Source of the DNA: Alloiococcus otitis ATCC 51267
GTDB lineage: Bacteria > Bacillota > Bacilli > Lactobacillales > Carnobacteriaceae_A
Length of the DNA stretch: 64,000 nucleotides
Assembly: GCF_000315445.1 (NCBI RefSeq)
Contig: NZ_JH992958.1
Coordinates: 47,625-111,624, forward strand
Reading direction: 5' to 3'
This document shows positions 4,347 through 52,418 of this stretch, piece after piece (position 1 is the first letter of the stretch; each line of letters opens with the position of its first letter). The notes below the pieces were generated by a model, which saw only the letters and a list, made by a program, of their open reading frames with translations, ran no database searches and was not told the DNA's origin. The translations under genes were made by a program, and so were the position numbers.

Positions 4347-5513
4347 TTATTCGTCTCCTTCCTGGATTGCCTGGTTGGCCAGATTGGCAACTTCTTGGAC
4401 AATTTCCAACTGCTGGTCGGTCAGGGCTTGCCCCCTGTAATTTTGGAAAAATTGCTGGAAGAGGTCGTCAATAGCCAATTGTCGCATGTCGCTGACATCT
4501 TGACCCCTTGCAGGATCGACTTGTCTTCCTTTTAAATTGACATAATCGATCCCCATGGCATTGGGATATTTTTTGCGCAAACGGGACATGGCATCCATGA
4601 TATAAGCCGGGTCTTCCAGGTCAAAAAAGATATAGTCGTCAGACTGGCCCTGGATCAAGTCGTCAAAAGTCCCGCGCAAAACCCGCATGTCCCGGTCTGG
4701 GATGAGGTCTCGGGTTTCAAGCTTCAAGACCGGGTCCCGGTCCTGGTCGATATCCAAAATAACCACTTGCTTGTGGTGGTTGACTTCAGATTTGGAGTAC
4801 TTGAGCAAGGAGCCACTGTAGCGAATGGACTCCCGTTTAACCTGTTGTGGGCCGTGCAAGTGACCCAAGGCTACATAGTCAAAGTCGTCGAAAATAGAAG
4901 CATCCACATATTCAGTTGTCCCAATACTTAAGGGGCGTTCAGAGTCCGACTCTTCAATCGAATCCCGACTCTGGTTGACAACATAACCATGCATGGTTAG
5001 GATGTTAAAGGCATGAGGGTCAAAGTCAGGGCCTTGGACAATCTGGTCAACCTGAACTTGGATGGCTTCTTCCAGATTTTTAATCTGGTCTTCCATGTCC
5101 AATTCTTGCCGGACCCAAATATGGTCCGCAAAGGGCATGAGGTAGACATGAACCCCGCCCAAGTCAACCATCTTAGTCTTGGGCTTAAATGTTCCTTCTA
5201 TATAAACATCATTTAGCTTGAACAAACCATTCCCAAATTCCAATCGTTCATTGCTGTCGTGGTTGCCCGCAATCATCAAGATAGGGATCTTCACTTCAGC
5301 CATCATCCGGTTGAGGAAGTCATTAAAGGCTAACACTGCTTGTTTAGGCGGAACCCCCCGGTCGTAGAGATCGCCTGCCATCAAAAGAGCATCAATTTTC
5401 TCTTCCTTTATGATTTCAATTAATTGGTCAAGCATGGCTATTTGGTCGTCCAGGAGGGAAAACTCATTGACAATCTTCCCTAGGTGCCAGTCCGCCGTAT
5501 GTAAAATCCGCAT
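4347..5513 (-). CDS. sbcD: Exonuclease SbcCD, nuclease subunit SbcD
   Basis: A 388-residue Mre11-type metallophosphoesterase and partner of SbcC. The five metal motifs are present: D8-x-H10, GDLYD (Asp48), GNHD (Asn84-His85-Asp86), MHG (His175) and GHLHG (His218/His220). The C-terminal capping region is complete, and total length is normal. The ATG is preceded by AAGGAG with good spacing. It is the first gene of a two-gene operon and ends immediately at the sbcC start. Confidence 0.96.
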   Translation of the reverse strand: MRILHTADWHLGKIVNEFSLLDDQIAMLDQLIEIIKEEKIDALLMAGDLYDRGVPPKQAVLAFNDFLNRMMAEVKIPILMIAGNHDSNERLEFGNGLFKLNDVYIEGTFKPKTKMVDLGGVHVYLMPFADHIWVRQELDMEDQIKNLEEAIQVQVDQIVQGPDFDPHAFNILTMHGYVVNQSRDSIEESDSERPLSIGTTEYVDASIFDDFDYVALGHLHGPQQVKRESIRYSGSLLKYSKSEVNHHKQVVILDIDQDRDPVLKLETRDLIPDRDMRVLRGTFDDLIQGQSDDYIFFDLEDPAYIMDAMSRLRKKYPNAMGIDYVNLKGRQVDPARGQDVSDMRQLAIDDLFQQFFQNYRGQALTDQQLEIVQEVANLANQAIQEGDE

Positions 5514-11548: not shown

Positions 11549-11602
11549 TTTACTTAAACTTTACACTAAATTGACTGGAAGTCTACATGTCCCTTGTATA
11601 AT
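11549..11602 (+). promoter_or_regulatory. PhoP-type box and promoter of the phn operon
   Basis: Four hexamers at exact 11-bp steps: TTTACT (11549), TTTACA (11560), TTGACT (11571) and TCTACA (11582). A perfect TATAAT -10 begins at 11597, 15 bases after the start of the last hexamer. This is the layout of PhoP-activated promoters in Bacillus (TTAACA-like direct repeats, 11-bp period). There is no usable -35 at normal spacing, as expected for activator dependence. Confidence 0.82.
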
Positions 11603-24127: not shown

Positions 24128-24943
24128 TTAAACGACAAACTGGATATAAGACCGGTCATCAAAAGAATAATTGCCTGGGTCAATCCCTTTAGTCGAAGGA
24201 TTTTCATGCAGACAGTGGGGGTCTTTTTCATTGACCTGTTCTAGGTAGTCTTCCGTAGTTTGAAAGTCTTCCTTTAAGTCAGGATAGCCATCAGATGCTA
24301 GGGTCACTAGGTCTCCTTCTTCTACATCAATTTCCGTAATCAGACTAGACGGGATTGGGTCACCATTTAAAACGGAATAGCCAAAGGGAACTTCCCGGTT
24401 CATAAACCGAGTTGTCTCTAAAATGTAGGGTAGGATCTCTTTCCTAGCTACTTCTTCACCATTTTCGTATAGGTCTTGACCCTGGTCTTTCCGGACAGCT
24501 GTAATGAAAGACCGCAAGTCAGCCAAGATATCATCCATCTTCTTAGGGGACTCATATATTTTATCATTGACCCGGACCTGGCAATCACCTATGATATAGA
24601 CTTTTTGAACCGCCTTTAGGTAAATAGCCATGACAGCTTGTAAACCATAGCGTCTTTTGTCCTTGGAAAAAGGAACATTCTGGTAAAACTCGTCATAGTC
24701 TTGGTTAATAGATTCAATAACCTGGTCTAAAGATTCAATTGTCTTTAAGTTTTTTAAACTGCAGAGAATAATTTGGCTCGCAATCCGCCCAGTTTTCTGC
24801 CCTTGATAGGTAAAATCTGATTTAGAAGTGACGCCATCGATCACAGCTAGAGCTTGGTCAGAAGTAAAAATAGCATCTTCACATAACTTTTGGTCTGGTC
24901 TTTTTCCTTTGAGAAATTTTTTGATTAACTTAATAATGATCAC
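24128..24943 (-). CDS. PP2C-like (PPM-fold) protein
   Basis: A 271-residue protein resembling a PP2C-type phosphatase. Metal-site-like segments: EDAIFTSDQALAVIDGVTS near the start (Asp and the DG pair), VYIIGDCQVRVND in the middle, LVTLASDGYPDL near residue 220, and the terminal SFDDRSYIQF. It likely removes phosphate from a protein or small molecule in the cytosol. The GTG at 24943 overlaps the upstream gene by 14 bp and lies inside the only ribosome-like site (GAGGTGATC), so the true start is uncertain; no in-frame ATG follows in the first 90 residues' leading part. Last gene of the run from 32785. Confidence 0.65.
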   Translation of the reverse strand: MIIIKLIKKFLKGKRPDQKLCEDAIFTSDQALAVIDGVTSKSDFTYQGQKTGRIASQIILCSLKNLKTIESLDQVIESINQDYDEFYQNVPFSKDKRRYGLQAVMAIYLKAVQKVYIIGDCQVRVNDKIYESPKKMDDILADLRSFITAVRKDQGQDLYENGEEVARKEILPYILETTRFMNREVPFGYSVLNGDPIPSSLITEIDVEEGDLVTLASDGYPDLKEDFQTTEDYLEQVNEKDPHCLHENPSTKGIDPGNYSFDDRSYIQFVV

Positions 24944-25607
24944 CTCGCTTAGATAAATCAGTATGGTAGGCTAACATATCATTAAAAATAACAAATTCAG
25001 GCTGGCTCACTCTTATCGTTAAATCCCCGTCTTGGACTTGCTTGTTCATTTTGGCTTTAAATGCTGCAAAATCAGCTTTTTCTTCCTGGTTAAAAGGTCG
25101 GTTGGTATAAGCTAAGGTAATATGAAAAGTGTAAGTATCTAAATCATTACGATCAACTTGAGTCTCTTCTACTAAAGCTTTGCGATATTCATATAAATTT
25201 TTAAAGCTATCTTTATCATAGGGTTCTAGCCTAAAGCGAAAAGCTGAAAATTCAGCAATTTTCATTTTTATTGGACCTGAAAATGGAACCTGATCTACCT
25301 TCTCTTTCAATATAGGATCAATTTGAGCAAAAGCTTGGTCAGGTAAATAGGAGGGCCAAACCTCTTGCCCCCTATCAATATCCCGGATCAGGCTTAGAAT
25401 GGTCATGTGCAAGGATGAGATGGGTAGGAAAGATAACTTGGCTGCATAGTCTTGCTTTTTTAGTGCTGACTGAATTGATTTAGCCAAATGGATAACATCT
25501 GGGTCGTCCAAAGTCAAGTCCAAGTATTCTATGACAGTATTGCCGTAATAATCAATAGCATTTCCCTCCCTGTCAAACTTATTAGGGTCAATTATACTGT
25601 TTATAGT
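24930..25607 (-). CDS. 2H phosphoesterase superfamily protein (2'-5' RNA ligase-like)
   Basis: About 225 residues, with the two hallmark HxT motifs: SSLHMTIL and YTFHITLAY, roughly 105 residues apart, as in LigT/DUF1868-type 2H phosphoesterases, which act on cyclic or 2'-5' phosphodiesters. Start uncertain: TTG at 25607 has AGAAGAG nine bases upstream; ATG codons at 25616 and 25619 directly abut that site. It overlaps the PP2C-like gene by 14 bp, and the pairing with it and with the glycerophosphodiesterase upstream suggests processing of a phosphodiester. Substrate unknown. Confidence 0.75.
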   Translation of the reverse strand, partial: TINSIIDPNKFDREGNAIDYYGNTVIEYLDLTLDDPDVIHLAKSIQSALKKQDYAAKLSFLPISSLHMTILSLIRDIDRGQEVWPSYLPDQAFAQIDPILKEKVDQVPFSGPIKMKIAEFSAFRFRLEPYDKDSFKNLYEYRKALVEETQVDRNDLDTYTFHITLAYTNRPFNQEEKADFAAFKAKMNKQVQDGDLTIRVSQPEFVIFNDMLAYHTDLSKRGDHY

Positions 25608-25702
25608 CAATAGCATCATCTCTTCTATAAAAATCTCAATAACTCCCAAACAGAACTCAACAAAATTAATTCTGGAAGAGTGTCCAACAGCTTACGATAA
25701 TA

Positions 25703-25884: not shown

Positions 25885-26745
25885 CTAATTGTTGGCTGAC
25901 CGGTAGCTAAACAATTGTTCAGGCCAATCAGTTTGAATAATTCGAGCACCCATACTGGTTAGTTTACCCCAAACCTTGTCTGGTGAATCAAAGAGAGCGA
26001 CGTGGTCATCCAAGCCAGCATAGAGGTCCTTGGTATCATTAACCTGTATGGTGTTAATTTGACTAATCCAACCCTTTTCATCCTGTAATTGCTGGATTAA
26101 GTCTGCCCCGTACAAGTCATCTTCTGGACTAGAGGCCAAAATTTCGACACCAATAATGTTAATATTCTCAGCCTGGACTAATAAGTTTAACTCCTCTTTT
26201 GTGCTGACAATACCCATGTACATGTATTTTTCAGGGTGGTTAGATAACTTGTCTAAGTCATCTTGGGTTACTTCACTTTTCAGAAGAAAACGCTTCTTGT
26301 GGGTATCTGCAAATTGGTCTAAAAATTCTAAAAATTCTGGCCAATAGTTCCAAGACTTGTCAAATTGTAGGATAAGGTCTTGAGGGCTATCAATGATAAG
26401 CTCTTTTAAGCTTTCAAGACTTCGGGTCGTCCGACTCCCAAAAGCATTAATCAGTTTATGGGTCTCTAATTCTTCGAAGGTCAAGTCACGAATATCAAAG
26501 TCTTCGCCAAACAATTGCTGTTCTTGTCCTGGGTGGAAAGGCAAGTAAACCCCATCCGCTGTCGCCACAATATCAAGCTCGGCAATTTCACAACCGCTAA
26601 GTTTAGACAGTTGCATGGCTTGGGAAGAATTTTCAATGACATTCCCACCCCAGCGACCCCGGTGGTTGGCTATTAAAAAGGAATTGTCCTGCAAATAACG
26701 GTCTAATAGTTCCCGATAGTTTTGAAAATCAACTGTTTTGTTCAT
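25885..26745 (-). CDS. Glycerophosphodiester phosphodiesterase-like protein
   Basis: A 286-residue cytosolic GDPD-fold protein that hydrolyses glycerophosphodiesters to glycerol-3-phosphate and an alcohol. Catalytic and metal residues: HRGRWGG (His28, Arg29), EN at 39-40, the ELD pair (Glu56, Asp58) and FHPG (His71, second catalytic histidine). No signal peptide, so the diester must be imported first, which fits its place behind the permease gene (17-bp overlap with it). The C-terminal half is divergent from classical GlpQ. Together with the ABC transporter it forms an import-and-cleave unit. Confidence 0.85.
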   Translation of the reverse strand: MNKTVDFQNYRELLDRYLQDNSFLIANHRGRWGGNVIENSSQAMQLSKLSGCEIAELDIVATADGVYLPFHPGQEQQLFGEDFDIRDLTFEELETHKLINAFGSRTTRSLESLKELIIDSPQDLILQFDKSWNYWPEFLEFLDQFADTHKKRFLLKSEVTQDDLDKLSNHPEKYMYMGIVSTKEELNLLVQAENINIIGVEILASSPEDDLYGADLIQQLQDEKGWISQINTIQVNDTKDLYAGLDDHVALFDSPDKVWGKLTSMGARIIQTDWPEQLFSYRSANN

Positions 26746-28516
26746 TAATTAACACAGCTCCACTTTGAGATTTGCTCTTCAATCTGAACTTACCTTTAAT
26801 ACCAGTAAAGAGGCTAGAAATCTTACTCATACCACCGAAGTATACTAACCAAACAACTAGAGCGTTAATGATAATCAAGATAACGGAGTAGACTAAGTTC
26901 AGCGCGATACTATCAGTTGCGTACTCACTGGACAAGTTATTTCTAATCACAATACCTAAAGTTGGGTTCAATGGGTGGTATAAGAAAGCTGACAAGTCGA
27001 AGTCATCCAGCTTACCGTTGAAGTTTAGGGCGAAGAGAGCAAGTACTGTTGGTAAGATAAGGGGTAAAATAACCTTGAAGAATGTATACATTTTCTTCGC
27101 ACCTAAAATAGTTGCTGCCTCTTCTAAACTATCATCAACAGTGTAGAATGCCGATTTAGTAAACCGTAGTGTGTTTGGAATAGAAACCACAATATAGCCA
27201 ATTAACATAATCATGGTTGTTCCTGTTAAGACTTGATTGAAGACAACAGTTTTAGGTTGATTATAGTAGAGGATCATACCTAAGGCAAAGAGGACACTCG
27301 GTAATAGCCATGGAATATGTAGTAAGTATTCCAGTACGGTCCCCCATTTACTTTTTGTTTTATATATGAGGCGGGCTGCATAGATGGTAATAACTGCAAC
27401 AACAGTCGCACTGAGGAAAGAATAGATGACCGAGGTTACAAATGGACGGTAAGCAGTTGAATCACTTAGGATTCTACCGTAGTTTTCTAGGGTAAAACCA
27501 CTAAAGGATAGAGTTCCTTCTGCAATTGATTGGTAGTCCATGAATGAGAACAAGATAACTGTTACAAATGGAAGAAGGTGGGCTAAGGCAAAAACATAAG
27601 CAGTAATGTGAGCCAAAACATTAGTTGCTGGGTTGTTAATCTTCATTTTTTTCTGTTTGACCTTCGTTTTAGAAACAGAAGCAAAGTTAGAATTCCGTTC
27701 AGTACGTTGAATCACATAAAGAACGATGATTTGGAAGACACCTAAGAACAAGGATAAGAGGGCTGCTAGCATGCGTGAGTTCGGTCTATTAGCAAAGGTC
27801 AAAATCAAGGGCATAATGGCATCATAGTCTTGACCACCTACAATCAGGGGAGCAGAGAAAGCTCCAACCCCTTGTTGGAAAAGTAAAATCACACAGGTAT
27901 TAATCACTGGACGTAACTGAGGTAAAACAACATCTTTTAGAATTTCCCATTGGCTAGCACCCAAGTTTCTGGCTGCTTCAATGGTTGAGTAATCGATGGA
28001 ACGAACAGCGTTTCTGAAGAAAATCATATAGTTAATTGTACAACCGAAAGTCATAACGACGATAACAGCTGCATAACCGCTAAACCAATTCGGATCTATG
28101 TTTGGATTGATTTGACTAAGTAGTTGAGTTGCAATTCCGTTAGGACCGTAGACGAACATGTAGCCGTTGTTAATCAACAACCCACCAAAAACGAGCGGAA
28201 TCATGTAGACAACTGTTAAAAACTTAGAACCTTTAACATCAAAGTATTCGATAAACAAAACTTGTAAAATACCGACAATAGAACAAGTGATCGGCAAGAG
28301 AAGTCCGATCATAAATGAGTTCCTTAAACCTGTCATGGCCCGGTCACTTTGAATGATGCTAGAGAAACCATCAATAGTAAATGAACCATCTGGGAAGAAA
28401 GTACTCTTCAACACTTCCCAGTTGGGGAGAATTAGGAATGCAAAAATAAACCAGACTAAAACAGCAATAGCAAAGATATTGAATATCTTATATAAATCAA
28501 ACTTGTTTTCCTTCAT
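26729..28516 (-). CDS. Fused two-domain ABC permease (FbpB/AfuB type)
   Basis: A 595-residue permease with two tandem MetI-like domains (about residues 60-275 and 330-570), each with a coupling motif: EAARNLGASQWEILKDVVLP and EEAATILGAKKMYTFFKVIL. This fused form is typical of FbpB/AfuB-type importers. Members of this family were first called iron transporters, but AfuABC of Actinobacillus imports hexose phosphates. The downstream glycerophosphodiesterase and the PhoP-type promoter favour an organophosphate substrate. ATG four bases after the ATPase stop. Confidence 0.88.
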   Translation of the reverse strand: MKENKFDLYKIFNIFAIAVLVWFIFAFLILPNWEVLKSTFFPDGSFTIDGFSSIIQSDRAMTGLRNSFMIGLLLPITCSIVGILQVLFIEYFDVKGSKFLTVVYMIPLVFGGLLINNGYMFVYGPNGIATQLLSQINPNIDPNWFSGYAAVIVVMTFGCTINYMIFFRNAVRSIDYSTIEAARNLGASQWEILKDVVLPQLRPVINTCVILLFQQGVGAFSAPLIVGGQDYDAIMPLILTFANRPNSRMLAALLSLFLGVFQIIVLYVIQRTERNSNFASVSKTKVKQKKMKINNPATNVLAHITAYVFALAHLLPFVTVILFSFMDYQSIAEGTLSFSGFTLENYGRILSDSTAYRPFVTSVIYSFLSATVVAVITIYAARLIYKTKSKWGTVLEYLLHIPWLLPSVLFALGMILYYNQPKTVVFNQVLTGTTMIMLIGYIVVSIPNTLRFTKSAFYTVDDSLEEAATILGAKKMYTFFKVILPLILPTVLALFALNFNGKLDDFDLSAFLYHPLNPTLGIVIRNNLSSEYATDSIALNLVYSVILIIINALVVWLVYFGGMSKISSLFTGIKGKFRLKSKSQSGAVLINEQNS

Positions 28517-28520
28517 GGTA

Positions 28521-29537
28521 TTAATCCCCCTTAAATTTCATAATGTGCTTAGGATCAATATATAGCTTAACCTGAGTGCCTTCCTCCATGGGTTTTTCGG
28601 AACTGACTTTTTGGTAAACAACAAGCTCGAGGTCATATTCTTCACTGTAGAAAATATAGTCGATATACTTACCGTAAAAATCGATATGGCGTAATTCTGC
28701 ACTAAAGCCATGTTCAGCATTAGCATCAAGAATCTGAATCCGTTCCGTTCTCACATAGAAGGAATCGTATTGGCTGGCTATATCTGGTGAAATTTGAGCC
28801 ACTAAACGTTTGGTCAACTTGTTAGAGTCACCAATAAAGGTACATACAAACTCAGTTGCAGGGTTGTAATAAACATCATATGGTGTCCCAACTTGCTCAA
28901 CGCCTCTATTATTAAAGATAGCAATTTGATCCGATAAGGTGAGGGCTTCTTCTTGGTCGTGGGTGACGTAAAGTGTAGTCAAGCCAGTTTTAGCCTGGAT
29001 GGATTTGATTTCATGACGTAAACTTTTACGTAATTTTGCATCCAAGTTAGATAAAGGTTCATCCATGGCCAAGACTTGTGGTTCTTTAGCAAGCGACCGA
29101 GTAATGGCTACCCTTTGTTGTTGTCCCCCAGAGAGTTCAGATACGTTTTTTTGTAACTGTTGCTGGTTCAAGTCAACCATTTCAGCCATTTCTTGGACCT
29201 TTCTCTCAATGACAGTCTTACTTGCCTTTTCAGTTTTTAAACCAAAGGCAATATTTTCGTAAGCAGTCATGGTTGGGAAAAGGGCATAGTTTTGGAAAAT
29301 CATCCCAATCCCCCGTTTCTCAACGGGCAAGTCATTCACAACTTGCCCACTGATTTTAATATCGCCGGATGAGTGTTGAATAAAGCCAACAATCGCTCTT
29401 AACATAGTACTTTTACCAGATCCAGATGGACCTAGGAAGGTAAAAAAGTCACCCTTGTTGATTTCAAGATTCACATGGTCGAGCGCTGTAAAGTCACCGT
29501 ATTTAATTTGAACATCTTCTAAACTAATCATGCTCAT
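28521..29537 (-). CDS. ABC transporter ATP-binding protein (FbpC/AfuC/PotA type)
   Basis: A 338-residue ATPase. Walker A GPSGSGKST, signature LSGGQQQRVAITRS, Walker B LAMDEPLSNLD and switch YVTHDQEEAL, followed by a C-terminal regulatory TOBE-like domain (about 240-338). ATG with GGAGGTGG upstream. It follows the disrupted binding-protein gene by 30 bp and precedes the fused permease by 4 bp, so its natural promoter is now separated from it by the IS21-family insertion. Confidence 0.9.
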   Translation of the reverse strand: MSMISLEDVQIKYGDFTALDHVNLEINKGDFFTFLGPSGSGKSTMLRAIVGFIQHSSGDIKISGQVVNDLPVEKRGIGMIFQNYALFPTMTAYENIAFGLKTEKASKTVIERKVQEMAEMVDLNQQQLQKNVSELSGGQQQRVAITRSLAKEPQVLAMDEPLSNLDAKLRKSLRHEIKSIQAKTGLTTLYVTHDQEEALTLSDQIAIFNNRGVEQVGTPYDVYYNPATEFVCTFIGDSNKLTKRLVAQISPDIASQYDSFYVRTERIQILDANAEHGFSAELRHIDFYGKYIDYIFYSEEYDLELVVYQKVSSEKPMEEGTQVKLYIDPKHIMKFKGD

Positions 29538-29567: not shown

Positions 29568-30491
29568 TTATAAGATATTTAGTTCGACGTATTCAATCCA
29601 CTCGTCTAGGTGGTCACCAACCCAATCATAGTCTAGGTCGACTGGTGTGGTATTTTCCATAATTTCATTTAAGCGTTCATCGACACTATCAGAAGCATTT
29701 GCATTAACTGGGACTTGACCGTGTTCCTCTGCAAAAGCAGCCATGACTTCTTCTGAACCAAACCAGTCAATAAATTCTTGTTCGACTGTGTTATCTTCAC
29801 CGTCATTAATAATACCAATTTGTTCAGTGGTTTGGATAACTCCTGGGTCGAGGTCAAGAACTCCAATATTAACATCATATTCTTGTTCAAAATTGGTAAC
29901 GTTCCCCATAAAAGTGAAGGAGTATGGAACTTCACCTGAAACGAAATCTGGCATCCAAGTTTCAGGACCACCTTCTGGCATAGTGACACCATTTTCGAAG
30001 TATTGAGCAACGTTGTCTAGGCCTTCCTGGGTTACGCCCATTTCTTGGCTATCATCTCTATGTTCAATAAGGTTAATGTACATAACCGCCGAGTTGGTAG
30101 CCCCACCTAAGGCATTTGGCACAAAGTATCTGTTTTCATATTGAGGATCATTGTAGAAGTCATTCCAGTGAGTAGGCAATTCACTTTCGTCCACTTCATC
30201 TTCGTTGTAAATCGCAAAAACTCTGGCGTAATCAACTGGAGCGTAAAGGTCATCATCACGAGTTGGAACGTCTTCAGCAATTTCGTCTTTCCAGGCTGGA
30301 GCGTGAGATTCTAATAATTCTTCATCAGCAATTTCTTGGAAGCTAAATTCATTAAGACCAAAGACAATGTCAGCAGTAGTAGATTGACCTTCTGCCAGTA
30401 ATCGGTTGGTCAAGTCTGGCCCGCCCAATTGTACGAACTCAATGTCAAAACCCGCTTCAGCAGCTCTTTCCTTGAAGAACTCATCCCGGCC
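29568..30491 (-). pseudogene. C-terminal part of an ABC binding-protein gene interrupted by IS21
   Basis: Encodes the mature part of an FbpA/AfuA-type binding protein (from GRDEFFKERAAEAGFDIEFVQLGG to the stop). The upstream part lies beyond the IS at 32643-32785. Joining the flanks and removing one copy of the 5-bp duplication gives an uninterrupted frame (SNASSEGRDEFFKE) and a 353-residue protein. Any reading frame that starts inside the IS end lacks a signal peptide, so the product cannot be exported as a lipoprotein. Confidence 0.93.
30487..30491. repeat. Target-site duplication, left copy
   Basis: CGGCC, repeated at 32643-32647 on the other side of the element. Confidence 0.92.
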
Positions 30492-30517
30492 TGTCAAGGG
30501 CAGTTTAAAATTGTAGG
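30492..30517 (+). repeat. IS21 terminal inverted repeat, istB end
   Basis: Begins TGTCAAGGGCAG. Read outward on the minus strand it ends in TTGACA, a perfect -35 hexamer at the very tip of the element. Confidence 0.9.
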
Positions 30518-30577
30518 TTTTCGGCAAGATAAAAATGTAGGTTTTTGGCAATTCAATTGTAGGTAATCGGTAGTTTT

Positions 30578-31306
30578 TTATTTCATTCGGTATGATTTTC
30601 CAGTGATCTTGAATACCTTCACGTGATGTACCAGACGGTCAAGTATCGCTGCCGCAATCTCTGAGTTCTGAAATAATTCCCCCCAACGGGATAACACAAT
30701 GTTGGTTGTTATGACAGTTGAATTCTTTTCATACCGCATCGTCATTAGTTGAAAGAATAAGTCTGCTTCAATCTTTTGAATAGGTAAGTAGCCAATCTCA
30801 TCAATGATAAGCAAGTCATAACGTGCATAACGTTTTAATACGCGCTCTTCTGTCCCTTTTTCAAAAGCTGAACGAAGACGTAAAAGTAATTCATGACAAC
30901 TAATAAACAATGTACGATAGCCTTGGTGGCAAGCTTCAATCCCTAAGGCAATTACCAGGTGGGTCTTACCCACACCTGGATTACCAATAAATACAAGGTT
31001 TTCTTTCTTTTCCATAAAAGCCATATGTTTGAGGTCAATGATTTCGTTTTTATTAATACTTGGTTGGAAATCAAAGTCAAACTCCTCTAAAGAAGTTCTT
31101 TTGGGGAAATGAGCGCGCTTAATCACACGTTCAATCTTTTGGTTCTTTTGATAGTGTAGTTCTTGGTTTGTCAGTTCTAATAGAGCCTCAGTTAAAGAAA
31201 TTTCATTTTTGTTTGCGACATCGATATAATTGGGCACATATTCTCGCATATGGTTTAAATTGAGTTCTTCTAGATTATATAAGAGTTTTTGATAAGCGCT
31301 ACTCAT
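30578..31306 (-). CDS. istB: IS21-family helper ATPase IstB
   Basis: A 242-residue AAA+ ATPase related to DnaA/DnaC that assists the IstA transposase in target selection. Walker A GNPGVGKT at 108-115, Walker B LLIIDEIGYL near 170, and the sensor region ITTNIVLSRWGE. Start ATG at 31306 is supported by GGAGGAG; it overlaps istA by 8 bases (ATGAGTAG), the usual translational coupling of the family. Confidence 0.95.
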   Translation of the reverse strand: MSSAYQKLLYNLEELNLNHMREYVPNYIDVANKNEISLTEALLELTNQELHYQKNQKIERVIKRAHFPKRTSLEEFDFDFQPSINKNEIIDLKHMAFMEKKENLVFIGNPGVGKTHLVIALGIEACHQGYRTLFISCHELLLRLRSAFEKGTEERVLKRYARYDLLIIDEIGYLPIQKIEADLFFQLMTMRYEKNSTVITTNIVLSRWGELFQNSEIAAAILDRLVHHVKVFKITGKSYRMK

Positions 31307-32537
31307 TCGTTGGCTCCTCCAAAAAGTCATACTGTTTTAAACTATTTTCAATATAGGACTGAATATCATCTTCATCCTTATGACTTAGGACATCAGATTT
31401 TAGAATTTGAACCATATCATCATAGTTATAATTCAATGGTTTCTCCGTTAATAAGTGCGAACGGATGCGTTCTCCGTTATAATAGATGTGCACGTGCGAT
31501 TCGTTATCGGAAAGGGCTAATTCAACTTCTTTTCCAATATAACGAGGATCTACCGAGTACCTACATTTGCGGAACAGAACCATCGCTTCCTTTGTGACTT
31601 TACGGCAAATAGAGTCATTGAAATATGGCGTTAATAGGTTTTCTGGTAGCTCATGTAGGTGCTCTTTTTCTTTATCCTTCCATAGGAAATAGGGTGTTTC
31701 TCCTGTAGCTTGAGACACTTCCCGATTAAGGTCGTGGCAAAGCATATCTACGATGTGGATAAGGTCTGTACTATCATGGAATTCATGATTATAGACACGT
31801 AATCGTTCAACTGTTCGGGCAAGTGCTTCCACACTTCCTTTTGTTTGAGGGCGAAATGGACGGCAGACCATCGTTCTAAACCCTGCATCTTTACTAAATG
31901 CATAGAATCGTTCATTCAATTGTACTTTTGAAAACTGAGTTCTTGATTGATCGACAACTGTTTTCATATTATCAAACCAAATTTCTTCTGGAACGCCACC
32001 GGTATGTTTAAAAGCCTCATTTAAACACTGAAATAATGTATCTTGTTTGCGGTCAAACGTCAGTGTTATAAACTTCATTTTTGAAAATGGCAATACATAG
32101 AGAAAAATATTAAAGCAAATAATTTCTCCTTGTTCACTGATAAGATGTATGTTTTCTTTCCAATCAACTTGAGCAGAAAGACCCGGCGTATGTTCAACAC
32201 GGATCGTCGCTTTCTTGACTCGCTCTTTCTTTAACTCACGACAGTAAGTTTTTACCAAACTATAGCTGCCATCAAAACCTTTCTTCTCAATAAATCGGAA
32301 GATACTATAGGCACTACAGTGGCCTTCTAGCTTTTCGTGAATCATGTTTTTAAACGGATCCAGTTTGCTTCCACGTTTCTTACGAGGAGAGGTTGAGCTT
32401 TCTCCTTTCAATGCTTCATGATAGGCTGCCTTAACCGTGCGGTAATCGCACCCAAATTGTTGAGCTAAAGCAGAAAAATTAGGTTTAATACCGTCTATCA
32501 TATATTTTTTCACTCCTTCTCGAATATCTCTTCTCAT
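31299..32537 (-). CDS. istA: IS21-family transposase IstA
   Basis: A 412-residue transposase with an N-terminal helix-turn-helix (FSALAQQFGCDYRTVKAAY, about 21-39) and an RNase H-fold catalytic core whose triad candidates are Asp125 (AQVDWKE), Asp189 (WFDNMKT) and Glu237 (GSVEALAR). Start ATG preceded by GGAGG. Reading frame intact. Confidence 0.95.
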   Translation of the reverse strand: MRRDIREGVKKYMIDGIKPNFSALAQQFGCDYRTVKAAYHEALKGESSTSPRKKRGSKLDPFKNMIHEKLEGHCSAYSIFRFIEKKGFDGSYSLVKTYCRELKKERVKKATIRVEHTPGLSAQVDWKENIHLISEQGEIICFNIFLYVLPFSKMKFITLTFDRKQDTLFQCLNEAFKHTGGVPEEIWFDNMKTVVDQSRTQFSKVQLNERFYAFSKDAGFRTMVCRPFRPQTKGSVEALARTVERLRVYNHEFHDSTDLIHIVDMLCHDLNREVSQATGETPYFLWKDKEKEHLHELPENLLTPYFNDSICRKVTKEAMVLFRKCRYSVDPRYIGKEVELALSDNESHVHIYYNGERIRSHLLTEKPLNYNYDDMVQILKSDVLSHKDEDDIQSYIENSLKQYDFLEEPTNE

Positions 32538-32616
32538 CCCAATACCTCCATTTCTAAAGGGATAAGAAGAGTATATAAAAAATGTAGGAAAACCAACAAT
32601 TTTAAATTGCCGTTTT

Positions 32617-32642
32617 CCTACATTTTATAGCTGCCGTTTACA
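32617..32642 (-). repeat. IS21 terminal inverted repeat, istA end
   Basis: Begins TGTAAACGGCAGC and is followed inward by TATAAA, a -10-like hexamer reading into istA. Confidence 0.9.
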
Positions 32643-32647
32643 CGGCC
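32643..32647. repeat. Target-site duplication, right copy
   Basis: CGGCC, matching 30487-30491. Confidence 0.92.
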
Positions 32648-32785
32648 TTCACTGGAAGCATTAGAGTAAATAACGAGCTGTTTGTCTTCTCTACTCTCCT
32701 CAGCTGAATCTCCAGACCCATTGTTACATGCTCCTAGTAGAAGCAAACTTCCAGAAAGCATGGCGAACTTAGCGATTTTCTTCAT
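32643..32785 (-). pseudogene. N-terminal part of the IS21-interrupted ABC binding-protein gene
   Basis: Begins at ATG 32785 after AGGAGAAGGAG and encodes a lipoprotein signal with lipobox LGAC (Cys20), a short acidic linker and the first strand QLVIYSNASSEG. The reading frame resumes at 30491 on the far side of the element. It is the promoter-proximal gene of the Afu-like operon. Confidence 0.93.
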
Positions 32786-32849: not shown

Positions 32850-32903
32850 ATAATATCAAGCGTATGTTTATTTCTTGTATGGAGTATGTGTAGTATATGT
32901 AAA
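32850..32903 (-). promoter_or_regulatory. PhoP-type box and promoter of the Afu-like organophosphate operon
   Basis: On the minus strand, four hexamers start at exact 11-bp steps: TTTACA (32903), TACACA (32892), CATACA (32881) and TAAACA (32870). The -10 TATTAT starts at 32855, 15 bases after the last hexamer starts, the same geometry as at phn. No normal -35 is present. Confidence 0.7.
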
Positions 32904-32949: not shown

Positions 32950-32992
32950 AATTTCCCTTCAAAGATACAATAAGGTATCTCTAAAAGGAAAT
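32950..32992 (-). terminator. Terminator of the hexuronate operon
   Basis: The stem AATTTCC-TT / AAGGGAAATT encloses an inner repeat (AGATAC/GTATCT) and is followed by TTTTTTG on the minus strand, after the dctM-like stop. Confidence 0.8.
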
Positions 32993-33012
32993 TGTAATTA
33001 TTTTTAACAATA

Positions 33013-45217: not shown

Positions 45218-46540
45218 CTAAAGCCATTTCTTCTGCCGCCATCTTTGGTAAAACAAGACAGCCCGAACCAACTCATCTAAAGCGAAGATAATGTAGATTA
45301 CAAATACCCCAGACTTAGCGTAACCGGCCAGTAAAGCTAGGGGAACAGTTAGCAAGACCTTGGTCACGATACCAGCATAGACAGGGTATTGAACATCTCC
45401 CGGCACCTGCAAAATAGCAATCAATATTTCATTCGCTACCCTTCCCAAATCATAAATAATGCAAATCCAGAGTAAGTTTTGGACAGTTTGGTGGACAAAG
45501 GAATCTTGGGTAAAAATTGGGATCAATACTGGGCCAAGAAGGGCTAGAGTTAAGGATATGAGAATGGAGGCTAGACCATAGCGGTGGACAATGTGGAGGC
45601 CAAAGTTTTTAGCCCGGTCTACCTTGTCTTGGCGGAGCAACTTGCCAATTTGAACTTGCAAGGCTTGGCCACCAGCCACAGCTACCGTGAAGGCAATAGC
45701 CGTAATGGTATCCGTATAAACCTTGGACGCAATGGCAATAGACCCCATGGAGGCAATGACCCCCATAATAATAGTTTGGACTAAATTGTAAACCACATTT
45801 TCCATACCAGAAGGGATCCCCAAAGACAAAATTTCTTTAACATAATCCCACGACTCCACACTTTTGTTAAAAATATTGCGCCAGACATTTGGCAATTGCC
45901 CAAAAGCCGTTATAAAGCCAATGACCAGCCCCACAATGCGGGCTAGGACTGTAAAAATTCCAATCCCAATCAAGGCCCTGGTTCCCTCAAAAATATTCGT
46001 ATAGACCACAAAGCCGTTCCCCAAAATAATGAGAAGGGTATTGATAATAGAAATAGCCATGGAGGCCTTGACTTTTTCAAAACTGCGCAAGAGAGCGGCT
46101 AGACTGGCAAACAAGCCTTGTGTAATGAGGCTAATGCTGACGATATTCAAATAAACATGGGCCAGGTCAATGATGCCCTCTGGTGTTTGCATCAGTCGTA
46201 AAATGGGGTGGCCAAAAATCCAAATAATAGCGATGATCAAAGTAGCTAAGCCGATATTGAGGACCACTGTTTGTTTAAAAATAGATTGAATGGGGCCAAG
46301 TTGGTCGGGGTCAGCTAAACGGAGCATCAATATGGTAGACCCTAAAGTGATAATCCCCATGGCCATTGTCCCAATACTCATAACTTGGTCCGCAATCCCA
46401 GTGGCAGCGACTGCCCGGTCAGCCACTTGCGACATGAGGAAAACATTGACATTGCCGATTAACATCAGAAAGATTTGCTCAATCAAAAGGGGGTAAAGGA
46501 GATGCCGGTATTCCCGGTCTAGAGCTTTAAAGGATGTCAT
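45218..46540 (-). CDS. MATE-family efflux transporter
   Basis: A 440-residue, 12-helix membrane protein of the MATE family. Two homologous halves each begin with an inter-helix stretch of the GxADQVM / GQALQVQIGKLL kind. Such proteins export cationic compounds in exchange for sodium or protons. Its ATG overlaps the preceding phosphoesterase gene by 14 bp, so it is translationally coupled. Efflux in a nutrient-import operon is unusual: it may export the non-phosphate part of the substrate (inference). Confidence 0.87.
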   Translation of the reverse strand: MTSFKALDREYRHLLYPLLIEQIFLMLIGNVNVFLMSQVADRAVAATGIADQVMSIGTMAMGIITLGSTILMLRLADPDQLGPIQSIFKQTVVLNIGLATLIIAIIWIFGHPILRLMQTPEGIIDLAHVYLNIVSISLITQGLFASLAALLRSFEKVKASMAISIINTLLIILGNGFVVYTNIFEGTRALIGIGIFTVLARIVGLVIGFITAFGQLPNVWRNIFNKSVESWDYVKEILSLGIPSGMENVVYNLVQTIIMGVIASMGSIAIASKVYTDTITAIAFTVAVAGGQALQVQIGKLLRQDKVDRAKNFGLHIVHRYGLASILISLTLALLGPVLIPIFTQDSFVHQTVQNLLWICIIYDLGRVANEILIAILQVPGDVQYPVYAGIVTKVLLTVPLALLAGYAKSGVFVIYIIFALDELVRAVLFYQRWRQKKWL

Positions 46541-47417
46541 CGGCTAAGATCCGCTCAGTTGACACTGTGTTATCATTTTCGTCCAGAGTGATCAAGCGAA
46601 CACCCCGGGCCTCATCTCCATAAGTGTCATAGCCAGACACCTGGCCATAAAGGCAATGAATGCCGCAATAAATGCCATCAAAATTATTATCATGGTCGTG
46701 TCCAGCAAAGACCCCCCAAATATTTCCAGCTTCTACAAGTTGGGTGAAGAGACCGGAATTCAAGTCAGGTGAACAAATTTCATGGTCCCCTTCATTAAAG
46801 TGGCCTTCAATAATATGATGACCAGCCTCCTTGTATTCTGGTAGGGGAATGTGGAGGAAAAGCAAGTTGTTCATGGCTGGGTCAGGATAGTCTTGAGCCA
46901 CTTGGCGGAACCAGGCTACCTGGTCAAAAGAAACCCAGTCATAGGTTCCATAATCTATCTTGGGGTAGTCACCAGAGTCGATAACATAAATAACCGTTTT
47001 GACAGCCTCTTGGTCAGACCCATAGATTTCCAGCAGGCAGGACTCCCGGCTGTCCATGACTTGAATTTGTTTTTTGGGTGCATGGTTGACTTGGGCGTCA
47101 GCTTCAATATATTTCCTTACGGCATCCCGGGAAATCGCCCCCTCACTATCATGGTTGCCCAAAGTAGTGATAAGGGGAGTCGACTGGCCATGAAAACAGT
47201 CTAAAAAGCTTTGCAAGCTCTCCAACTGCTTGTTGACTCCCTCAGACCAAGTAATGTCTCCCGTGTGGACAACCAAATCAACTTGATACCTGTCCAAGGC
47301 AGTCTTAACTAAGTCTAGGGTCTTTTGACTAGCCTCTGACAAGGGAGAGTCGCCAATATGGGTATCGGTGATTTGCATAATGGTAAAAGAACCGTCTGAA
47401 TTGTAGCTTAGTGTCAT
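46527..47417 (-). CDS. Calcineurin-like metallophosphoesterase
   Basis: A 296-residue cytosolic phosphoesterase. Motifs: ITDTHIGD (Asp-x-His), HTGDITW, GNHDSEG, LHIPLPEY and AGHDHDNN with the final histidine pair. Related to purple acid/Icc-type phosphodiesterases. No signal peptide. It lies nine bases after an ABC permease gene, so it probably cleaves phosphate from the imported substrate. Exact bond and substrate unknown. Confidence 0.85.
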   Translation of the reverse strand: MTLSYNSDGSFTIMQITDTHIGDSPLSEASQKTLDLVKTALDRYQVDLVVHTGDITWSEGVNKQLESLQSFLDCFHGQSTPLITTLGNHDSEGAISRDAVRKYIEADAQVNHAPKKQIQVMDSRESCLLEIYGSDQEAVKTVIYVIDSGDYPKIDYGTYDWVSFDQVAWFRQVAQDYPDPAMNNLLFLHIPLPEYKEAGHHIIEGHFNEGDHEICSPDLNSGLFTQLVEAGNIWGVFAGHDHDNNFDGIYCGIHCLYGQVSGYDTYGDEARGVRLITLDENDNTVSTERILADDIL

Positions 47418-52364: not shown

Positions 52365-52418
52365 ATGATACAGGCGGTTTATTAATATTTTGTAGATCCT
52401 GTGTAAAATTTACATAAA
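52365..52418 (-). promoter_or_regulatory. PhoP-type box and promoter of the Lpl-like operon
   Basis: On the minus strand, hexamers TTTATG (52418), TTTACA (52407), TCTACA (52396) and TTAATA (52385) keep an exact 11-bp period. The -10 TATCAT starts at 52370, 15 bases after the last hexamer starts, as at the phn and Afu-like promoters. Confidence 0.72.

Follow-up and report, generated by a model that had tools for sequence, protein, structure and literature searches.

The box and the interrupted operon

The 64,000-nucleotide stretch of Alloiococcus otitis ATCC 51267 that was analyzed here (the window) carries on its minus strand an ABC transporter operon that is interrupted by an insertion sequence and preceded by an array of repeated hexamers (Table 1). 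Read on the minus strand, the array is TTTACA-tatac-TACACA-tactc-CATACA-agaaa-TAAACA-tacgcttga-TATTAT, in which four head-to-tail hexamers recur with a period of exactly 11 bp. The hexamer starts and 11-bp steps given in a first-pass annotation of this DNA were exact on re-reading, and so was the 15-base distance that it gave from the last hexamer start to TATTAT. The first hexamer is followed by three that differ from TT(A/T/C)ACA at one or two positions. The sequence 17 bases before TATTAT is ACAAGA, with no -35-like hexamer, and none was seen at this distance from the -10 at any of the three boxes of this kind in the window; the sigma-70 scan of the window did not use this TATTAT. Between the upstream TRAP operon and the box lies a terminator-like hairpin, a class of match that the scan yields no more often in the window than in shuffles, so that chance-level occurrence is expected.

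The first gene behind the box, encoding a substrate-binding protein (SBP), is split about 48 codons in by an IS21-family element flanked by a 5-bp duplication, GGCCG (32643–32647 and 30487–30491). The reading frames downstream of the element are open, and relatives have intact SBP genes (L108:6690–7766 is one). Because the SBP gene is split, the operon is probably non-functional in this strain. Just inside the promoter-facing end of the element the sequence folds into a highly stable hairpin with a U tract behind it. The pattern scanner for terminators did not list this hairpin; judging from the fold, a transcript from the box probably ends there. The insertion and the hairpin together would leave the box promoter with only a short message to drive, and it is probably an orphan in this strain. 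Elsewhere in the genome, C1:220328–220393 encodes, at 86% identity, the 22-residue peptide translated from the end of the IS21 element, which suggests that another copy of the element, or of its end, is probably present.

Table 1. Features of the locus and related sites (window positions; C4 denotes another contig of the genome)
Feature	Position	Strand	Basis or remark
Box and -10 before phn operon	11549..11602	plus	geometry and genome pattern search
PP2C-like protein	24128..24943	minus	found too in boxed operon L151
2H-phosphodiesterase-like protein	24930..25649	minus	
GDPD-family glycerophosphodiesterase	25885..26745	minus	no signal peptide
Fused double permease	26729..28516	minus	PhnU2/AfuB-like
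ABC ATPase	28521..29537	minus	PhnT2/UgpC-like, below equivalog cut-offs
SBP gene, 3' piece	29568..30491	minus	SBP_bac_8/SBP_bac_6; no signal peptide
IS21-family insertion	30492..32642	minus	operon orientation; ends read by eye
istB	30578-31330		within IS21 element
istA	31299-32537		within IS21 element
Terminator-like hairpin with U tract	32576..32629	minus	-21.9 kcal/mol, z -8.5
SBP gene, 5' piece	32643..32785	minus	lipoprotein signal and first residues, up to IS21
-10 hexamer TATTAT	32855-32850	minus	9 bases past last repeat
Putative PhoP-type box, four hexamers	32865..32903	minus	N5 between hexamers; sequence, genome pattern search, matrix
Hexamer 1, TTTACA	32903-32898	minus	
Hexamer 2, TACACA	32892-32887	minus	
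Hexamer 3, CATACA	32881-32876	minus	
Hexamer 4, TAAACA	32870-32865	minus	
Terminator-like hairpin before the box	32950..32993	minus	consensus match
Metallophosphoesterase	46527-47417		within UgpC/LplBC-like operon
Box and -10 before UgpC/LplBC-like operon	52365..52418	minus	geometry and genome pattern search
PhoB/PhoP-like response regulator gene	C4:118188-118904		beside pnpS/phoR and pstSCAB-phoU
pst box	C4:120740-120793		before pstS-pstC-pstA-pstB-phoU; strict pattern search

The same architecture in the genome and in relatives

Two further operons of the window stand behind the same arrangement. The box of the phn operon (PhnD-like SBP, PhnC, PhnE, PhnE and a 5'-nucleotidase-like protein) reads TTTACT/TTTACA/TTGACT/TCTACA, 9 bases, TATAAT, and that of the Lpl/Ugp-like operon reads TTTATG/TTTACA/TCTACA/TTAATA, 9 bases, TATCAT, confirming the identical geometry previously claimed for these sites and extending it to the 9-base gap. 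The span from 11549 to 52418 has the makings of a phosphorus-scavenging neighborhood, containing the phn operon with its 5'-nucleotidase-like enzyme, two more ugp/lpl-like operons, the GDPD-linked transporter and a metallophosphoesterase.

When the 1.8-Mb genome was searched for four TNNACA hexamers followed by N9 and TATNAT with up to 3 mismatches, four matches were obtained and none in the reversed control; this strict pattern was written after the pst site had surfaced in a looser three-hexamer scan, but it is definable from the three window boxes alone. The matches are the three window boxes and the promoter of pstSCAB-phoU, directly behind phoP-pnpS/phoR, which puts the site in front of genes of this genome whose role in phosphate uptake is not in doubt. 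A genome scan of this kind had been proposed in the first-pass annotation, and its sole extra match, at the pst operon beside phoPR, is the opposite of hits at random positions with no enrichment near phosphate genes. The PhoP/PhoR pair occupies C4:118188–120709; its kinase passes the PnpS cut-off and its regulator is PhoB/YycF-like, below the equivalog cut-offs. Looser patterns (three hexamers with 2 mismatches, or four TTHAYA) did not discriminate, their matches in the whole genome being about as frequent as those of the reversed controls. The genome-wide test consisted of pattern searches, and matrices were applied to the window and to selected stretches. With leave-one-out matrices each window box ranked third, behind the two window boxes used in training, and the pst box ranked first in its own stretch.

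The family sample comprised 27 genomes including that of the window, and a PstS model found loci in 25 of them. At 23 of these 25 loci the highest score on either strand of the whole locus fell on a gene-strand box of this architecture. The gap was fixed at 9 bases in that run, but when gaps of 8, 9 or 10 had been permitted before, with 8 and 10 penalized, 9 was chosen at the pst sites. The first base of the box mostly lies ~100–113 bases before the pstS start. Scores ranged from 13.2 to 29.5, against shuffled loci of which 95% fell below 12.3 and the highest reached 14.3; position, not score, is what supports the two or three lowest-scoring sites. No such box was the best site at pstS in the remaining two genomes, G012 (a short contig piece) and G017. 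A matrix built from 18 pst promoters of other genomes gave the three window boxes scores of 30.0, 26.3 and 22.1, ranks 1–3 in the window; it excludes the sites of this genome, but its training sites were located with a matrix of this genome's four boxes, and its independence is thus one of sequence, not of method. In the same scan, the next scores belonged to register-shifted copies of the boxes (13.6 and 11.9), no unrelated place exceeded 10.9, and the maximum over 16 shuffled strands was 14.6.

Beyond this genome, a pattern scan of the family with up to 3 mismatches gave 20 matches, of which 11 lie at pstS and 2 at ugpC; the other 7 are about the number predicted by the reversed control, which gave 6 over all 27 genomes. 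The sites before a ugpC-type ATPase gene occur in two relatives (L110 in G025:C9 and L123 in G024:C3), and in G025 a complete ugpCAEB-like operon follows the box. No published work on PhoP or pstS in Aerococcus emerged from a literature search.

Two other places in the genome were noted. A fifth site of this architecture, at C5:159680–159733 on the minus strand (L050, L112), scores 22.5 with the relatives' pst matrix and stands directly before a GT4 glycosyltransferase gene whose best matches, below cut-off, are glycolipid synthases; it hints at phosphate-controlled remodeling of membrane lipids. Just left of the window, C2:39892–46923 on the minus strand (L044) encodes a 2343-residue protein with purple-acid-phosphatase, metallophosphatase and Rib domains. 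In-phase TTTACA-like hexamers lie upstream of this surface protein (C2:47005–47043), and their distance to TATAAT breaks the 9-base rule, leaving them as a candidate only.

The transporter and its likely substrate

The first-pass annotation had re-labeled this supposed iron-type transporter as phosphorus-scavenging, in agreement with its glycerophosphodiesterase. That agreement is borne out at orthologous loci, where a GDPD is linked to the transporter in 13 of the 19 examined (this genome, L063, L106–L109, L149–L151, L155, L157, L158 and L160, as against L152–L154, L156, L159 and L161). No signal peptide was seen in the two GDPD proteins translated, the window copy and an orthologue, as would befit the cytosolic enzyme linked to a Ugp-like importer. 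In several loci a DUF218 protein accompanies the transporter as well. The window GDPD (25885–26745, minus strand) reads HP where its orthologues and the family have HD, which may affect its activity.

Among solved structures, a profile built from six orthologous SBPs matched a 2-aminoethylphosphonate-type SBP (4r6y), YfuA, the pyridoxal-phosphate SBP P5PA (6wce) and several ferric SBPs; an AlphaFold prediction for the SBP, based on two aligned sequences, reached a pLDDT of only 31, too low for use. The resemblance to ferric SBPs is one reason to consider that the box is indeed a Pho promoter but that the transporter imports iron or mainly serves carbon supply, Pho control being incidental. Most orthologous operons, moreover, are without a box, and that of L106 has a palindrome like the operator of another regulator. 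Set against this, the iron-binding tyrosine pair of FbpA/HitA-type proteins is absent at the aligned position of the window SBP, where the tyrosine stretch of ferric SBPs meets non-tyrosine residues (one relative, L063, has YY near it), and there is the GDPD linkage. AfuA itself, for which iron binding had at one time been predicted, is a binding protein for hexose and heptose phosphates, and AfuABC is a sugar-phosphate importer (PMC4546632). On balance we regard an iron or carbon role as unlikely. Given the GDPD linkage and an SBP without the iron-type tyrosine pair, the transporter likely imports organophosphates, and glycerophosphodiesters are perhaps the best guess for its substrate.

How far Pho control extends among orthologues was judged from their promoters. 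Outside this genome only two orthologous loci have a clear box. L137/L151 has three in-phase TTTACA, with a gap of 8, ahead of an SBP-ATPase-permease-GDPD-PP2C operon. L063/L134 also has three in-phase TTTACA, but these point toward a divergent DUF218 gene, and a partial array faces the SBP gene; the promoter sequence of L063 (Aerococcaceae bacterium DSM 111176) is the same as that of L134 (G058), which the search placed in another family of the same order. L131 has a weak box, and at the other orthologous loci the box is very weak or missing. Pho control of this transporter thus appears to be lineage-specific, not general, and since the box is not a general feature of these loci it was probably gained in few lineages or lost often. 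In L106 (~5310–5370, G004) the orthologous operon follows an MgtC-family gene, and the promoter region of that gene has, in place of a Pho box, the palindrome AATCGGTTCCGATT, which suggests another regulator.

The re-labeling as phosphorus-scavenging is therefore supported by the box, the GDPD linkage and the missing tyrosines, with the qualifications that Pho control seems to be lineage-specific and that the operon is probably non-functional here. A close functional parallel is E. coli ugpBAEC-ugpQ, a Pho-controlled ABC importer operon with a cytosolic glycerophosphodiesterase. By analogy, the simplest reading is that the lipoprotein SBP, the ATPase and the fused permease would import organophosphates that the cytosolic GDPD then hydrolyzes. 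The two systems share a Pho-type promoter, an ABC importer and a cytosolic GDPD in one operon, but the SBP and fused permease here come from another subfamily (PhnS/AfuA-like), and the window copy is broken by IS21. Both Ugp and UgpQ are members of the Pho regulon in E. coli (PMC4415409). The SBP of AfuABC and the SBP P5PA (6wce) are likewise related to ferric SBPs; AfuA and P5PA bind phosphate esters, a type of substrate that can only be surmised for the window SBP, and they differ from it in that here a GDPD is linked and the SBP is a Gram-positive lipoprotein.

A probable Pho-regulon promoter, probably cut off from its operon

The sequence at 32850–32903 is very probably a PhoP-type activator site, an already known kind of promoter. 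The core site of B. subtilis PhoP is TT(A/T/C)ACA-N4-6-TT(A/T/C)ACA (Liu and Hulett 1998, as quoted in PMC12404567). The present box matches the B. subtilis boxes in its TT(N)ACA-type direct repeats, 5-base spacers, 11-bp period and position ahead of pst or phosphorus-scavenging genes, and the family array departs from them in always having four repeats, a fixed 9-base gap to the -10 and a degenerate third repeat. In E. coli, the PhoB pho box consists of two 11-nt direct repeat units (PMC4415409), bound there head to tail by a regulator of the OmpR/PhoB family; the unit length and direct repetition are shared, but the core sequence is another (CTGTCAT in E. coli). Under phosphate limitation, the regulator encoded at C4:118188–118904 would occupy all four head-to-tail repeats along a single face of the DNA and, with the last repeat 9 bases upstream, would recruit RNA polymerase to a -10 that has no -35.

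The repeats could also be read as a WalR/VicR box for cell-wall regulation. The WalR recognition motif, TGTWAH-N5-TGTWAH, is the reverse complement of a TTWACA array, the two motifs being near mirror images, and the genome has a VicR-like regulator at C2:277148. Direction, however, tells against this reading, as the four genome sites and the 23 pst sites all read TTTACA toward the gene, and so do the four repeats at a fixed 9-base gap from the -10 and the location of the sites at pst, phn and ugp-like genes, not at cell-wall genes. With orientation and target genes that fit Pho and place the site outside the WalR class, we rejected a WalR/VicR box as very improbable. Still less credible is a chance array of TTTACA-like hexamers, rejected despite the AT-rich intergenic setting and the uninformative looser patterns, because the full architecture gave four genome matches against none, the relatives' matrix gave 30.0 against a shuffled maximum of 14.6, and the same box recurs at pstS in 23 of 25 genomes of the family, in line with the first-pass view that the shared geometry makes chance unlikely.

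That the site is a real phosphate-starvation switch is very probable, since the same four-repeat design stands at the phosphate-uptake genes of this bacterium and of nearly all its relatives. We consider it highly likely, taking the evidence as a whole, that the locus is a Pho-regulon promoter, originally of an organophosphate-type importer, now cut off by IS21. More tentatively, and perhaps rather less likely than otherwise, the transporter may be a Pho-controlled AfuA/PhnS-type importer that takes in glycerophosphodiesters whole (derived from teichoic acids or from phospholipid head groups), their phosphorus then being freed by the operon's cytosolic GDPD. It would in that case be a counterpart of Ugp that arose independently in Lactobacillales-type bacteria and joined the Pho regulon on separate occasions in a few genera.

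To the earlier annotation, which lacked the pst site, the analysis adds that anchor, the family-wide architecture, indications that Pho control of this GDPD-linked, organophosphate-type transporter is confined to certain lineages, and the probable orphan status of the promoter. The iron-type reading is corrected, the sequence evidence supporting a place for the "iron-like" transporter in the phosphorus-scavenging program, and a testable substrate class is named for which intact orthologues exist. The locus offers an example of a regulated promoter probably severed from its operon by IS21. Comparison of relatives in a little-studied family has yielded a rigid Pho promoter design (four 11-bp repeats, a 9-base gap and a -10) that is specific enough for calling members of the regulon from sequence.
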